Source: Candidatus Planktophila sp. (GTDB taxonomy: Bacteria; Actinomycetota; Actinomycetes; Nanopelagicales; Nanopelagicaceae). From it: a stretch of DNA of 43,334 bases. Below are positions 5,125 to 40,049 of the stretch, piece by piece (position 1 is the first letter of the stretch; every line of letters begins with the position of its first letter). Below the pieces are notes generated by a model. The model saw nothing but the letters and a program-made list of their open reading frames with translations. It had not been told where the DNA came from and did not search any database. The stretch covers positions 1 through 43,334 of the forward strand of contig SHUV01000006.1 in NCBI GenBank assembly GCA_009694515.1. The letters are read 5' to 3'. A program made the position numbers and the translations under genes.

Positions 5125-5141
5125 GTCTCATAAATTGAGAC
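5125..5141. repeat. Inverted repeat upstream of the ilvB leader promoter
   Basis: GTCTCA and TGAGAC form a perfect 6-bp palindrome with a 5-base spacer (TAAAT). It lies just after the ilvD stop and 14 bases before the -35 hexamer of the leader promoter. No T-run follows, so a simple terminator is unlikely. It could be an operator. The 8-mer GTCTCATA recurs at 3395-3402 in the ilvD promoter. Confidence 0.45.
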
Positions 5142-5155
5142 CTGCATCTCACCTC

Positions 5156-5185
5156 TTGACTCACACGGCACCTGCGTTGGATAAT
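5156..5185 (+). promoter_or_regulatory. Promoter of the ilvL-ilvBNC-serA-leuB-ilvE-cimA operon
   Basis: TTGACT (5156-5161) and GATAAT (5180-5185) are near-consensus sigma-70-type hexamers with an 18-base spacer. The leader-peptide ATG begins only six bases after the -10, so the transcript would start at about the ATG itself and be leaderless. This is the best-matching promoter in the window. Confidence 0.75.
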
Positions 5186-5191
5186 AGGCGG

Positions 5192-5239
5192 ATGCAATCA
5201 ACACGTTCGTCAGTTCTTTCAGTGGTGGTGATTCGATAG
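5192..5239 (+). CDS. Branched-chain amino acid leader peptide (attenuator peptide)
   Basis: A 15-codon frame encodes MQSTRSSVLSVVVIR. Six of its last eight residues are Val, Leu or Ile, including three consecutive GTG valine codons at 5222-5230. It follows a strong promoter and precedes an RNA hairpin and an intrinsic terminator ahead of ilvB. This is the classical layout of ribosome-mediated attenuation known for ilvBNC in Corynebacterium and for enteric ilv operons. Shortage of charged Val/Leu/Ile tRNA would stall the ribosome and favour read-through. Unusually, the ATG lies at the predicted transcription start, with no room for a ribosome binding site. The peptide and its context are seen; the mechanism is inferred from homologous systems. 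Confidence 0.85.
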   Translation: MQSTRSSVLSVVVIR

Positions 5240-5263
5240 CGCGTGCCTGTAAGTCACACGCGC
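5239..5263 (+). promoter_or_regulatory. Attenuator upstream hairpin
   Basis: GCGCGTG (5239-5245) pairs perfectly with CACGCGC (5257-5263). The stem begins at the last base of the leader stop codon and shares one base (5263) with the terminator stem. A ribosome at the leader stop would block its 5' arm, while one stalled on the Val codons upstream might leave it free. I could not find a clean long antiterminator that would fully exclude the terminator. Confidence 0.65.
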
Positions 5264-5286
5264 CCTCAGATATCTGAGGGTTTTTT
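5263..5286 (+). terminator. Intrinsic terminator of the ilvB attenuator
   Basis: An 18-base perfect palindrome, CCCTCAGATATCTGAGGG (5263-5280), is followed directly by six T residues. It lies between the leader peptide and ilvB, about 50 bases before the ilvB start. It would stop transcription when the leader peptide is translated without stalling. Confidence 0.85.
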
Positions 5287-5334
5287 CATTTAACAAGATT
5301 GAGCAGGATGAGATTACGAAAAGGGAGTACGAAG

Positions 5335-7098
5335 ATGGCCACACATGTTCCAACAGCAAACGGCACTGCGATGACTGGGGCTACTGCACTTGTGAAGAGC
5401 CTTGAAGCTGCTGGCGTTGAAGTGATGTTCGGACTTCCGGGCGGTGCGATTCTTCCTGCTTACGATCCAATTTATGATTCAACAATTCGCCACATTCTGG
5501 TGCGCCACGAGCAAGGTGCGGGCCATGCTGCAACTGGATATGCCCAAGTTTCTGGTCGCGCCGGAGTCTGTATTGCAACATCAGGACCAGGTGCGACAAA
5601 CCTGGTAACGCCATTGATGGATGCTTCAATGGACTCAGTGCCACTTGTTGCTATTACCGGTCAGGTGCCATCTGCTGCAATTGGAACCGATGCTTTTCAA
5701 GAGGCAGATATCCGGGGCATCACAATGCCATTTACTAAACATAACTATTTAGTTACTGATCCTGCCGAAATTGCTGGAGCTATCGCTGAAGCCTTCCACA
5801 TTGCAACAACAGGTCGTCCCGGCCCAGTTCTTGTCGATATTGCTAAAGATGCGCTGCAGAAGATGACAACTTTTAATTGGCCAACCTCAATTAATTTAGC
5901 TGGCTACAAGCCAAAGACGACTCCCAATGCACAAGCAATCACCGATGCGGCCGTGCTCATCGCACAGTCTTCCAAGCCAGTCTTCTATGTTGGAGGCGGT
6001 GTTATCAAAGCAAATGCTGCTGCCGAACTTCGCGCCCTTGTTGAACTTCTTGGTGCACCTGTTGTCACAACTTTGATGGCGCGCGGTGCTTTTCCGGATT
6101 CTCATCCTTTGCATATGGGAATGCCGGGAATGCACGGAACAGTTGCGGCCGTAACTGCGCTACAAAAAGCTGACCTGCTTATTACCTTAGGTGCTCGCTT
6201 TGATGATCGTGTGACCGGCAAGCTCTCTACCTTTGCACCGAATGCAAAGATTCTTCATGCCGATATTGATCCTGCTGAAATCGGTAAGAACCGTCATGCT
6301 GATGTGGCCGTAGTGGGCGACATCAGAGAGACCATGGCGGCGCTGGCTCCAGCGTTGAAGGCAGCACTTGCTAAGAACAAGCCTGATCTCACTGCCTGGC
6401 TAAAACAGATGAATTCACTTAAGTCAACCTATCCATTGGGATTTGATATTCCAGAAGATGGCTCGCTTTCACCGCAGCTTGTGATCCAACGCCTTGGCCA
6501 GATTTCTGGCACCGATACCATTTTCACCGCTGGTGTTGGTCAACACCAGATGTGGGCATCACAATTTATTTCTTACGAACATCCACGCACCTGGCTTAAC
6601 TCTGGTGGCGCCGGAACTATGGGCTATGGCGTTCCAGCTGCCATGGGTGCAAAAGTGGCAGCACCTGATTCAACGGTGTGGGCAATCGATGGCGATGGGT
6701 GTTTCCAGATGACTAACCAAGAGTTAGTGACATGTGCACTCAATAACATTCCGATCAAAGTTGCCATCATTAACAATGAATCACTCGGCATGGTTCGCCA
6801 GTGGCAGACACTTTTCTATGACAGTCGTTACTCAAATACATCACTTGATTCAAAGCGCGTTCCCAACTTTCCAATGCTTGCCGAATCCATGGGTTGCGTG
6901 GGACTTGCCTGCGATCGCCCAGAAGATCTTGATAAGACAATTGAAAAAGCTATGTCAATTAATGATCAACCAGTTGTTGTCGATTTCCGTGTTCACCGCG
7001 ATGCCATGGTCTGGCCAATGGTTGCCGCTGGCACATCAAATGACGAAATCTTGATCGCTCGGGCTACCGCCCCGGACTGGGATTCACAGGAGCTCTAA
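5335..7098 (+). CDS. ilvB: Acetolactate synthase, catalytic large subunit
   Basis: This 587-residue ThDP enzyme condenses two pyruvates to acetolactate, or pyruvate with 2-ketobutyrate to acetohydroxybutyrate. It is the committed step of BCAA synthesis. The N-terminal ThDP domain shows [13 protein letters not shown] and the catalytic glutamate E59 in [14 protein letters not shown]. The C-terminal domain has the GDGCFQM ... INNESLGMV ThDP motif and the conserved RQWQTLFY loop. I prefer the ATG at 5335, preceded by GGGAG, over the TTG at 5299, which lies close to the attenuator. The TAA stop overlaps the ilvN ATG by one base. Expression should depend on the upstream attenuator. Confidence 0.97.
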
Positions 7099-7397
7099 TG
7101 ACTACAGCATCGCGTCGCCAACACACGCTCGAAGTTCTGGTTGAAAACTCACCTGGAGTTTTGGCTCGCGTAGCTGGACTATTCTCACGTCGTGCCTTCA
7201 ATATTGATTCACTTAATGTGGGACCAACGCAAGACCCAACTATTTCCAAGATGGTTATCGTCGTTGGAGTGGAAGGTCACTCGCTCGAGCAGGTCATCGC
7301 CCAGCTCGATAAGTTGATTAGCGTGATATCAATTAAGGAAGTCTTAATCGGCAGCAAACCAGAAGTAATCAGCACACAACCCGACTATCAAAACTAA
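7098..7397 (+). CDS. ilvN: Acetolactate synthase regulatory subunit, short single-ACT form
   Basis: The protein starts TLEVLVENSPGVLARVAGLFSRR, the hallmark of the ACT domain of IlvN/IlvH, which binds valine and activates the large subunit. It is only 99 residues long. Most actinobacterial IlvN proteins are about 165-170 residues, with a second ALS_ss_C domain that is absent here. The frame stops 27 bases before ilvC, with an ilvC ribosome binding site in that gap, so no broken C-terminal remnant is hidden downstream. Single-ACT small subunits are known in E. coli (IlvN, IlvM). Start and stop are clear. The effect on feedback inhibition cannot be read from sequence. Confidence 0.92.
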   Translation: MTTASRRQHTLEVLVENSPGVLARVAGLFSRRAFNIDSLNVGPTQDPTISKMVIVVGVEGHSLEQVIAQLDKLISVISIKEVLIGSKPEVISTQPDYQN

Positions 7398-7412
7398 GCA
7401 AGAAACTACTAA

Positions 7413-10043
<2,631 letters not shown>

Positions 10044-10044
<1 letters not shown>

Positions 10045-11084
10045 TGTCACGCACAATTAACCTTGCAGTTATTGCTGGCGACGGAATCGGTACTGAAGTA
10101 GTCGGTGAAGGACTTAAAGTCCTTGATGTCATTGCGGCCAAGTACGACCTCACCATCAACAAGACTCACTACGACCTAGGTGCCGGGTATTGGCATCGCA
10201 CAGGTGAAGTACTCCCAGATTCAGTTCTGGCAGAGCTTGCCAAGTCAGATGTCATCTTGCTTGGCGCGGTCGGAGATCCGACTGTCCCCAGTGGAATTCT
10301 GGAGCGCGGACTTCTGCTTAAACTCAGATTCGCATTTGATCACTACATCAACTTGCGTCCGGCAAAGTTAATACCTGGCATCACAGGTCCACTTGCTACC
10401 AAGGCGCCCATCGATTTCATCGTTGTTCGCGAAGGCACCGAAGGCCCTTACGCGGGTGCTGGTGGAGTACTTGCTGAAGGCACACCTTTCGAGATTGCAA
10501 CCGAAGAGTCACTTAATACTCGTCGTGGCGCTGAGCGTGTTATTCGTGATGCCTTTGCTCGCGCTGCCGCACGCGAACGTAAGAAGCTCACCCTTGTTCA
10601 TAAGAACAACGTGCTCACCCGCTCGGGCAGTCTCTGGACTCGCACATTTAACGAAGTTGCTAAGGAATTTCCAACTGTAACTACCGATTACCTGCACGTT
10701 GATGCCGCCTCTATGTTCTTTGTTACCAACCCAGAACGCTTTGATGTGGTTGTCACAGATAATCTCTTCGGAGATATCTTGACTGATATCGCAGCTGCTA
10801 TTTGTGGTGGTATTGGCCTTGCTGCCTCTGGCAATATCAACCCAACGGGTCAATTCCCATCAATGTTTGAACCTGTGCACGGATCAGCTCCTGATATCGC
10901 AGGTAAGAATATCGCTGACCCAACGGCCACAGTGATGTCTATTTCAATGATGCTCGATCACTTGAAGCTACATGATGCAGCGCGCGATGTTGAAAAGGCT
11001 GTCGCTACAGATCTCGCATCACGTGGGACTACAAAGCGCAGCACCACTGAAGTGGGTTCAGCGTTAGCAGCACTGGTGAAGTAA
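10044..11084 (+). CDS. leuB: 3-isopropylmalate dehydrogenase
   Basis: LeuB oxidatively decarboxylates 3-isopropylmalate in leucine synthesis. In organisms using citramalate it also acts on 3-methylmalate for isoleucine. The 346-residue protein has the N-terminal [15 protein letters not shown] motif, the substrate-binding [10 protein letters not shown] and [11 protein letters not shown] segments, and the metal/substrate aspartates in the [13 protein letters not shown] signature. It overlaps serA by one base (TAATG) and abuts ilvE. No leuA or leuCD gene lies in this window, so those enzymes must be encoded elsewhere. Confidence 0.96.
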
Positions 11085-12167
11085 ATGAAGATCACTCTTA
11101 ATCCACATGCTGTTCCTGCTGCAGAGCGCGAAGAAAAAGTCGCCAACTGTGGTTTTGGAAAGTACTACACCGACCATATGGTCCTCTGTGAGTGGACTGA
11201 AAGTGGGGGATGGCAAGAACCGGAGCTCAAGCCTTATGGCCCGATCACTCTCGATCCGGCAACTGCAGTCTTTCATTACGGACAAGAAATCTTTGAAGGC
11301 ATGAAGGCTTATCGCCAACCAGATGGTGGTATTGCACTCTTTCGCCCGGAAGCAAATGCTCGACGCTTTGCAAAATCTGCTAATCGTCTTGCACTGCCGG
11401 AAATGCCAGAGGCGTTGTTTTTAGAAACAATCCAGACTCTGGTAAAGCAAGATGCTGGCTGGGTTCCAGGAAAAATCGGTGAAGCTCTTTATATTCGCCC
11501 ATTTATGATTGCAACAGAAGTTGGACTTGGTGTGCGCCCAACGAATAAGGCCACCTATCTTCTAATCGCAACTCCAGCAGGGGCATATTTTGATCCATCT
11601 AAGGCAGTCTCTGTCTGGATTTCTACTGAATATGTTCGCGCAGCCCAAGGTGGAACAGGTGAAGCCAAGTGTGGTGGAAATTACGCCGCCTCACTGATTG
11701 CTCAGAAAGCTGCCGCCCAAGAAGGATGCGATCAAGTTGTCTGGATTGATGCCAAAGAACGTAAATGGGTGGAAGAGATGGGCGGCATGAACCTCTACTT
11801 TGTTAAAGGTAGAGGCGCCGATGCAACTGTGATTACTCCAAAATTAACTGGAACGTTGTTGCCTGGAATTACTCGTGACTCAATTCTTTCGGTAGCGAAA
11901 GACCTTGGCTATAAGACAGATGAAGTCATGCTCTCCATCGATGATTGGCGAGATGGTGTGACTTCCGGTGAAATCACCGAAATCTTTGCCTGTGGCACGG
12001 CAGCTGTTGTTTCACCTGTTGGTCAAGCAAAATCTGCGATGGGCACCTGGGTAACTGGCAATGGCGAACCCGGCACAATCACTATGCAGATTCGCAACCA
12101 TTTATTAGCAATACAGCATGGCACTATGGAAGATAAGCACGGTTGGATGCAGCAGGTTGCACTGTGA
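11085..12167 (+). CDS. ilvE: Branched-chain amino acid aminotransferase
   Basis: IlvE is a fold-type IV PLP enzyme that makes the last step of valine, leucine and isoleucine synthesis with glutamate as donor. The 360-residue sequence fits the bacterial/eukaryotic BCAT II group, with FHYGQEIFEGMKAYR near residue 65 and CGGNYAASLIAQKAA, a region of the active site. The EMGGMNLYFV segment and the C-terminal GEITEIFACGTAAVVSPVG are typical. The ATG follows the leuB stop with no gap, and the TGA stop lies within the GTGA that starts cimA. Confidence 0.96.
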   Translation: MKITLNPHAVPAAEREEKVANCGFGKYYTDHMVLCEWTESGGWQEPELKPYGPITLDPATAVFHYGQEIFEGMKAYRQPDGGIALFRPEANARRFAKSANRLALPEMPEALFLETIQTLVKQDAGWVPGKIGEALYIRPFMIATEVGLGVRPTNKATYLLIATPAGAYFDPSKAVSVWISTEYVRAAQGGTGEAKCGGNYAASLIAQKAAAQEGCDQVVWIDAKERKWVEEMGGMNLYFVKGRGADATVITPKLTGTLLPGITRDSILSVAKDLGYKTDEVMLSIDDWRDGVTSGEITEIFACGTAAVVSPVGQAKSAMGTWVTGNGEPGTITMQIRNHLLAIQHGTMEDKHGWMQQVAL

Positions 12168-13753
12168 GCATCAGCGATGCCTTTCATATCTATGACACCA
12201 CCCTGCGAGATGGTGCACAGCAAGAAGGCTTAAACCTTTCAGTTCACGACAAAATCACCATTGCCCGCCACCTTGATGATCTCGGTGTTGGTTTCATTGA
12301 AGGCGGATGGCCGGGTGCCAACCCAAAAGATACGGAATTCTTTGCTCTCGCTAGAAAAGAGCTGAAACTTAAGAACGCCACCTTTGTGGCATTTGGTGCC
12401 ACCCGCCGCCCGAATGCGAAAGCAGCAGATGATGTACTCCTTGGCGCACTTCGTGACTCTGGGGCACCTGCCGTAACACTGGTTGCAAAGTCATATGATC
12501 GACATGTTGAGCTTGCACTCAAGACAACGCTGGCTGAAAACTTAGAAATGATTCGCGATTCCGTAACGCACTTGCGCCAGGAAGGTCAGAGAGTATTTCT
12601 TGATGCCGAGCACTTCTTTGATGGCTATCGCGCCAATCGTGCTTATGCACTAGAAGTAGTTCGCGTTGCAGCTGAAGCTGGCGCCGATGTGATTGCACTG
12701 TGTGATACCAACGGTGGAATGTTGCCTGATGAGATTGCAGATGTTGTACATGACATATTAGGTGCATCTTCTGCGCGCCTTGGTATTCACTGCCACAACG
12801 ACACCGGGTGCGCAGTTGCTAATTCAATGGCAGCAGTCAAGGCTGGTGTAACGCATGTGCAGGGAACACTTAATGGTTATGGTGAACGCACAGGTAACGC
12901 CGACCTGGTCACAATCATTGCCAACTTTGAGTTGAAGAAGAAGAAAGAAGTTCTGCCCCAGAACGCACTGCGTGAGGCATTTCGTATCTCCCATGCAGTT
13001 GCTGAAGTAACCAATATTTCGCCATCACCACGCCAGCCCTATACCGGCGTCTCTGCCTTTGCACATAAGGCCGGACTGCACGCATCTGCTATTAAAGTTG
13101 ATCCCAGCTTGTATCAACATGAAGATCCAGAATCTGTTGGCAACGATATGCGGATGTTGGTTTCAGATATGGCAGGCCGTGCATCAGTGGAATTAAAGTC
13201 CATGGAACTCGGAGTTGATCTCAATGGCGATCGCGAACTCATCGGTCGCGTTGTTGAACGCGTTAAAGAGATGGAAGCTCGTGGCTTCACCTTTGAAGCA
13301 GCCGATGCCTCATTCGAGCTCTTATTACGGGAAGAGGCAACCGGAAAGCGCCCATCATTTTTCACTATTGATCATTGGCTCACCACAACTGAACGTGGTG
13401 CTAACAATTCAATTGTTACTAAAGCCGAAGTCACTATTACTGCACAGGGCAAAGAGATCACATGTTCTGGTGCGGGCAATGGTCCGGTGAACGCATTTGA
13501 TACTGCACTTCGTGCCGGACTCAATCAGCTTTACCCAGAACTTTCTTCACTTGAACTTACTGACTACAAAGTGCGCATCCTAGAAGGGCGGCTGGGCACG
13601 GGCGCAGTTACTCGGGTACTGATTGAAACATCAGATGGAAAAGGTGAGTGGAATACCGTGGGCGTGCACGAGAACGTGATTGCCGCCTCGGCCATGGCGC
13701 TGGAAGATGCCCTTACCTTTGGTCTACTACGTCAGGGTCGCAAGTCGGAGTAG
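12164..13753 (+). CDS. cimA: (R)-citramalate synthase
   Basis: This 529-residue LeuA-type enzyme condenses pyruvate with acetyl-CoA to citramalate, giving 2-ketobutyrate for isoleucine without threonine deaminase. The HMGL-like domain begins YDTTLRDGAQQEGLNLSVHDK. The EGGWPGANPKDTEFF motif is the one seen in CimA rather than in isopropylmalate synthase. Metal and catalytic motifs HCHNDTGCAVANS and NGYGERTGNADL follow, and the C-terminus is a LeuA-type allosteric domain. The GTG start overlaps the ilvE stop (GTGA), and the alternative frame extension upstream lies inside ilvE. An isopropylmalate synthase role is less likely but not excluded without assay. Confidence 0.9.
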   Translation: MSISDAFHIYDTTLRDGAQQEGLNLSVHDKITIARHLDDLGVGFIEGGWPGANPKDTEFFALARKELKLKNATFVAFGATRRPNAKAADDVLLGALRDSGAPAVTLVAKSYDRHVELALKTTLAENLEMIRDSVTHLRQEGQRVFLDAEHFFDGYRANRAYALEVVRVAAEAGADVIALCDTNGGMLPDEIADVVHDILGASSARLGIHCHNDTGCAVANSMAAVKAGVTHVQGTLNGYGERTGNADLVTIIANFELKKKKEVLPQNALREAFRISHAVAEVTNISPSPRQPYTGVSAFAHKAGLHASAIKVDPSLYQHEDPESVGNDMRMLVSDMAGRASVELKSMELGVDLNGDRELIGRVVERVKEMEARGFTFEAADASFELLLREEATGKRPSFFTIDHWLTTTERGANNSIVTKAEVTITAQGKEITCSGAGNGPVNAFDTALRAGLNQLYPELSSLELTDYKVRILEGRLGTGAVTRVLIETSDGKGEWNTVGVHENVIAASAMALEDALTFGLLRQGRKSE

Positions 13754-39900: not shown

Positions 39901-39956
39901 ACTACCCGCCGGGGGACTAATGGTCCTCGGTAGTGGTTTCCAGATGTTTGCATCTG
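39901..39956 (+). other. Hairpins after rpsO (rpsO-pnp spacer, part 1)
   Basis: ACTACC (39901-39906) pairs with GGTAGT (39929-39934), enclosing GGAC/GTCC (39914-39917 with 39923-39926, extended by a G-U and a G-C). CAGATG (39941-39946) then pairs with CATCTG (39951-39956) around TTTG. The first may act as an imperfect terminator or an RNase III site; the T-run after it is short. Confidence 0.5.
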
Positions 39957-39961
39957 TGAAC

Positions 39962-40049
39962 TTCGATCGAAGATTCATTCGTTTCGCCTTGCGAGTAGTT
40001 ACCGCTTCCAAGCTGTGCTCATGCACCTTGGAATATGCAACAAACGAAT
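39962..40049 (+). promoter_or_regulatory. Structured pnp leader (rpsO-pnp spacer, part 2)
   Basis: TTCGATCGAA (39962-39971) is a perfect palindrome. ATTCGTTT (39977-39984) is fully complementary to AAACGAAT (40042-40049), closing a region that ends next to the AAAGGAGG ribosome binding site. Inside it TTCCAAG (40006-40012) pairs with CTTGGAA (40027-40033), continued by GTGC/GCAC around a TCAT loop. In E. coli and Streptomyces, hairpins between rpsO and pnp are cut by RNase III and allow PNPase control. Confidence 0.55.

Follow-up and report, generated by a model that had tools for sequence, protein, structure and literature searches.

The window analysed here, a 43,334-nt stretch of contig SHUV01000006.1 from Candidatus Planktophila sp. 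(assembly GCA_009694515.1, 0.92 Mb, 74% complete), has among its closest named relatives 'Candidatus Nanopelagicaceae bacterium' and Actinobacteria bacterium IMCC26103. It carries the genes ilvB, ilvN, ilvC, serA, leuB, ilvE and cimA in a run, all named by NCBIfam in agreement with the original prediction, and a leader region in front of ilvB (Table 1). These ORFs are co-directional and closely spaced or overlapping, and from this arrangement they are likely to be transcribed as one unit. The ilvD gene, also named by NCBIfam, lies 88 nt upstream in the same direction. The ilvN gene (7098-7397) encodes only 99 aa, which match positions 2-77 of the 164-position small-subunit model; its product has ~100-102 aa in several close relatives and ~170-190 aa in the order's other genera, a difference that suggests loss of the C-terminal half of this regulatory subunit in the subgroup of the window. 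Elsewhere in the window, an Actino-pnp RNA (RF01688, 65 bits) was found at 39919-39979.

Table 1. Features of the ilvB leader region and the downstream genes in the window
Feature	Position	Strand	Details
Palindrome TGAGACCTGCATCTCA, candidate operator	5136-5151	.	3' end 4 nt before the -35
Promoter	5156-5185	+	-35 TTGACT 5156-5161, 18-nt spacer, -10 GATAAT 5180-5185
Leader peptide gene MQSTRSSVLSVVVIR and stop	5192-5239	+	Predicted leaderless; ATG is the expected +1
Sensor codons GTG GTG GTG ATT	5222-5233	+	Val Val Val Ile
Hairpin P1	5239-5263	+	GCGCGTG (5239-5245)/CACGCGC (5257-5263)
Intrinsic terminator	5263-5286	+	CCCTCAG-ATAT-CTGAGGG + TTTTTT
Shine-Dalgarno (SD) and ilvB start	5322-5337	+	AGGGAG 5322-5327, ATG 5335; ordinary SD, unlike the leader gene
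ilvB, acetolactate synthase large subunit	5335-7098	+	NCBIfam NF005860 and TIGR00118 above cut-off; predicted first gene controlled
ilvN, ilvC, serA, leuB, ilvE, cimA	7098-13753	+	NCBIfam; starts at 7098, 7425, 8425, 10044, 11085 and 12143, respectively

Every part of the leader region that had been read from the letters (-35, -10, ATG, peptide, hairpin and terminator with its T6) is present in the window, base-exact. The -10 ends at 5185, 6 nt before the leader ATG (5192-5194), and the leader ORF has fifteen sense codons followed by a TAG at 5237-5239. Hairpin P1 has its first base within this stop codon and its 3' end flush with the terminator, whose stem CCCTCAGATATCTGAGGG (5263-5280) is an 18-base perfect DNA palindrome with the T6 tract at 5281-5286. 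The two hairpins share the single base C5263, as had been claimed, and G5262 can also wobble-pair with T5281. As expected of an ilvB attenuator, a short ORF with a Val/Leu/Ile run lies directly before ilvB, with a U-tract terminator between them.

Scans of the window by itself do not distinguish these parts from chance, with one promoter found by consensus scan (1.7 +/- 1.5 in shuffles) and three terminators found by pattern matching (1.6 in shuffles). The single-sequence fold of the window leader is weak (z -1.7), and Rfam, at the gathering cut-off and at E 1, has no match over the leader. The element is judged to be real because it is conserved across relatives, and not because of the single-sequence scans. 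All 121 genomes sampled from the order have an ilvB gene; the leaders compared come from these genomes and 80 named contigs. In the 181 upstream regions parsed, the start codon follows the -10 by 6 nt (142), 7 nt (38) or 8 nt (1), so that it is fixed at the expected transcription start, and it is ATG in 161/181. The parser demanded a distance of 5-8 nt from the -10 to the start; a wider first pass allowing 3-10 nt gave the same distances for nearly all recognised leaders. The -35 and -10 are conserved with a 17-18 nt spacing, and positions 2, 4, 5 and 6 of the -10 hexamer have frequencies of A 0.93, A 0.97, A 0.85 and T 0.99, respectively. Between the terminator and ilvB, an SD-like sequence is present in 117 of 118 relatives.

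The comparison of Val/Leu/Ile codons among relatives, proposed with the original prediction, shows Val and Ile in all 118 distinct leaders and Leu in only 48. The commonest runs in the order (Nanopelagicaceae) are VVVI (47/118) and VVI (35/118), with mostly GTG and ATT as sensor codons. Since every peptide contains Val and Ile and Leu is often absent, the switch is probably, on codon content, mainly a valine sensor. The position of the leader stop varies by lineage (e.g., L010, L022 and 5237-5239 in the window), being placed right after VVVI (MSTTFVVVI-stop), just 5' of P1 (VVVIR-stop) or in the P1 loop (VVIRERAI-stop); in the last type, the ERAI codons make up the 5' arm of P1. In one clade (L019, L020, L160, L161 and L164), the Val run has been lost (peptide ~MLSRISVRLERAS), with P1 and the terminator kept.

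The relatives' leaders were also compared for covarying stems; covariation is seen in P1, and hardly any change in the arms of the terminator. When 50 distinct leaders are aligned, double changes occur in 6 of the 11 P1 pairs, and 91% of the cells of the whole structure are paired, versus 22-49% with the partners slid. The covariation of P1 is, if anything, under-counted, because sequences with a short loop, in the subgroup of the window, are misaligned by one column. In the relatives' leaders, the mean folding z is -4.6 for P1 and -0.88 for the 5' part of the leader, the latter a weak signal only a little above shuffles. Across all 50 aligned relatives (50/50), the terminator arms CCCTCAG/CTGAGGG do not vary except at one U-A/U-G pair; this motif was ruled out as an everyday terminator of the lineage, as it occurs once per genome in six genomes. 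The gap from P1 to the terminator is -3 to +1 nt in 109/109 distinct leaders, versus 62% of shuffled segments, so the flush arrangement is partly expected because the segment is short. In other Actinobacteria, the gap lies within -3 to +3 nt in 48/50. The amount of overlap varies, and the contact between P1 and the terminator is kept. P1 begins 4-5 nt past the last BCAA codon in 83/109.

The leaders were folded with the ribosome modelled as covering the RNA to 15 nt beyond the first base of the P-site codon. Over 110 leaders, P1 has a probability of 0.998 when the A site holds the first codon of the run, 0.17 when it holds the last and 0.20 at the stop, and the terminator body forms in every ribosome state (0.98-0.999, equilibrium folding). 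In the window, masking toggles P1, which is only about half formed in one register, and, of the terminator, only the basal pair 5263-5280. This pair drops from 1.00 to 0.67-0.70 with the ribosome on V8 to V12, where P1 competes with it, and is 1.00 from V13 onward, a modest effect in this model. As the terminator body forms in all states at equilibrium, any switching must be kinetic or steric.

Here it is proposed that the element is probably a transcription attenuator of the kind found before ilvB in Actinobacteria, ribosome-dependent and with a leaderless leader gene, in which P1 acts on the base of the terminator. For the start site, the direction of regulation and the crowding step, we infer the following. 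Transcription would most likely start on the A of the ATG at 5192, and a ribosome would load on the 5' AUG and trail the RNA polymerase. When charged tRNA-Val (and, via V8/L9, Val or Leu) is short, the ribosome would halt at the first two Val codons of VVVI or earlier, its front edge would stay upstream of 5239, and P1 would fold to 5263, flush with the terminator. P1 may then take or crowd the basal pair C5263-G5280, which would have to close within the RNA exit channel, and with basal closure hindered, the polymerase would continue into the genes from ilvB to cimA. When valine is plentiful, the ribosome would stand at the stop codon with its front edge at ~5249, opening P1 without reaching 5263, and the terminator could close fully and stop transcription at the T tract. 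Throughout the parsed set, 17 nt or more separate the end of the leader stop codon from the terminator, so a ribosome at the stop would open P1 without touching the terminator. In the simplest reading, P1 would be the antiterminator, working through a few shared bases and crowding at the RNA exit on the terminator base only. It is possible, if doubtful, that this represents a distinct class of two-hairpin attenuators, in which a ribosome-gated P1 blocks only the basal closure of a near-invariant terminator without long alternative pairing; equally tentative is that, in such a class, a ribosome on the third-last sensor codon has its front edge at the foot of P1.

The position of a ribosome on a leader peptide also decides termination in the trp and his attenuators of E. 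coli and Salmonella, which, unlike the window, have an SD-led leader peptide and long mutually exclusive hairpins. Classical attenuation in E. coli does rely on an SD-led leader peptide; such peptides are not the norm in this phylum. The original prediction had presented leaderlessness as a departure from known attenuation, and its novelty is not upheld, the leaderless ilvB leader attenuator being already known in other Actinobacteria. Free 70S ribosomes, suggested there as a further input, might act in this way; the sequence argues neither for nor against it. Leader peptides with terminators upstream of ilvB were listed in 2005 for Corynebacterium, Mycobacterium and Streptomyces (PMC1262725). 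In C. glutamicum, the start of ilvL lies one nt from the mapped +1 (PMC11857589, citing Morbach et al.); in C. diphtheriae, the transcription start site (TSS) makes the ilvB leader leaderless (PMC5784534); and in S. lividans, IlvL is leaderless together with leuL, trpL, thrL and metL, with a mean distance of 6.3 nt from the -10 to the TSS (PMC8079986).

C. glutamicum ilvBNC (IlvL MTIIRLVVVTARRLP; PMC11857589, citing Morbach et al.) is like the window in its start at the 5' end, its VVV codons and its ilvB target, and the 3' edge of its hairpin touches the terminator base, there through a shared GCC; it is unlike the window in its proposed overlap of three bases, against 0-3 here, and in an additional hairpin, H1, proposed upstream, where the 5' part of the present leaders has only a weak folding signal. 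By analogy, the present arrangement resembles the proposed C. glutamicum 'fast attenuator'. Streptomyces IlvL (MRTRILVLGKRVG) has the same order of parts and is leaderless by TSS in S. lividans (PMC8079986, PMC1262725), and it differs in having ILVL for VVVI, a longer P1 and the stop codon inside P1. Two other systems are likened here by description. The ilvB-II motif, defined in Corynebacterium only, has an uORF in the P1 region, a P2 terminator, BCAA codons and ilvB, and its antiterminator is proposed to act through the P1 loop (PMC10272879); M. tuberculosis ilvB1 has LVVI codons, a stop-codon ribosome that masks the antiterminator and a terminator before ilvB1, and is described with mutually exclusive hairpins (PMC13236596). 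A covariance model built from the present lineage only (R1) matches ilvB leaders of Streptomyces, Kitasatospora, Jiangella, Blastococcus and others, including the characterised layout at Streptomyces loci encoding MRTRILVLGKRVG (e.g., L042 and L058); under strict filters, 35 of 198 genomes sampled from the class have a match. Weak extra matches of R1 (E 6e-4 to 0.03) at G010:C1 ~424160-424230, G014:C1 ~417990-418350 and G000:C15:416-475 are probably unrelated hairpins.

Mutants of these relatives bear on the proposed mechanism. Control in C. glutamicum is lost when Val codons are changed to Ala, and mutations of the terminator base raise expression there 7-8 fold, with switching proposed via the shared GCC (PMC11857589); in M. 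tuberculosis, changing LVVI to AAAA abolishes induction (PMC13236596). Against the P1 model, C. glutamicum expression drops by 80% when the leader start codon is lost (PMC11857589), whereas a free P1 predicts read-through without translation, and leader-codon changes had no effect in S. coelicolor (PMC1262725). The plain P1 model does not predict this and may lack an extra upstream hairpin or a step that depends on translation.

The terminator arms are more invariant than their stem alone requires, which makes a second pairing partner conceivable, and a pairing of P2a with the P1 loop has been proposed in Corynebacterium (PMC10272879). The element could then be a classical attenuator of the trp/his type, with a hidden, mutually exclusive antiterminator joining a leader segment to a terminator arm. 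In the window, CUUUCAG can indeed pair with CUGAGGG (7 bp with G-U); this pairing is absent in many relatives and was rejected as the antiterminator. A conserved leader segment complementary to a terminator arm was not found, as alternative pairing was no better than shuffles for the 5' arm in 109/110 leaders and for the 3' arm in 79/110, with scattered positions, and RNAalifold yields only P1 and the terminator. A hidden antiterminator is, on this evidence, unlikely, and the earlier remark that the antitermination step is not the textbook one stands, no alternative partner of the terminator arms having been found and P1 being flush with the terminator. Translation of the leader from a longer, leadered mRNA, arising from an upstream promoter or from read-through of the co-directional ilvD 88 nt upstream, with a GGAG in the -10 as the SD, would account for the SD-like string found within 20 nt of the leader start in 60/118 relatives, typically overlapping the -10 (GGAGAAT). 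However, the window has GGATAAT, without GGAG; the conserved last T of the -10 (0.99) and the 17-18 nt distance to the -35 match a promoter and not an SD; and the mapped starts are leaderless in C. diphtheriae, S. lividans and C. glutamicum (PMC5784534, PMC8079986, PMC11857589), which renders a leadered mRNA very unlikely. The GGAG was discarded as an SD, being absent from the window and not conserved outside the order.

The palindrome upstream of the promoter is probably a transcription-factor operator. Of 116 distinct relatives in the order, 94 match TGAGAY-N4-RTCTCA perfectly (12/12), with shuffles reaching 10/12 in 1/116, and 101 of the 104 good matches in these relatives end 4-5 nt before the -35; looser counterparts exist in other Actinobacteria. 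The exact pattern occurs once in genome G000, and two exact extra sites (L200 and L202) lie inside or near genes without evident BCAA function. In Streptomyces, the ilvB promoter is bound by NdgR, an IclR regulator (PMC4340878), and G000 has an IclR-type gene next to recA/recX-like genes. The palindrome does not read like the published NdgR motif (PMC4340878, PMC8222616), and an IclR-regulon site was rejected, with no convincing site at IclR genes. Control might be exerted entirely by a factor on this palindrome, with the terminator ending ilvD read-through or setting a fixed level and the codons not acting as sensors. Conservation of the palindrome is roughly on a par with that of the attenuator, and NdgR binding in Streptomyces, the IclR-type gene of G000 and the S. 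coelicolor leader-codon mutants, which stayed regulated (PMC1262725), all point this way. Such control leaves the VV(V)I codons, their fixed distance to P1 and the covariation of P1 unexplained, and is considered highly improbable; operator and attenuator layers can coexist.

As a ribosome-dependent attenuator, the element would extend the known valine/BCAA control to the small-genome freshwater Nanopelagicaceae, where the leaderless geometry, the sensor codons, P1 and the flush terminator are kept together over ~120 genomes of the order. This comparative set sharpens a question posed by C. glutamicum and S. coelicolor, namely how switching is achieved in an attenuator with so little overlap between its two hairpins, and the clade that has lost the Val run provides a natural experiment on the role of the codons. 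The same set also brings to light the palindrome as a candidate operator, a second conserved site of control beside the promoter.
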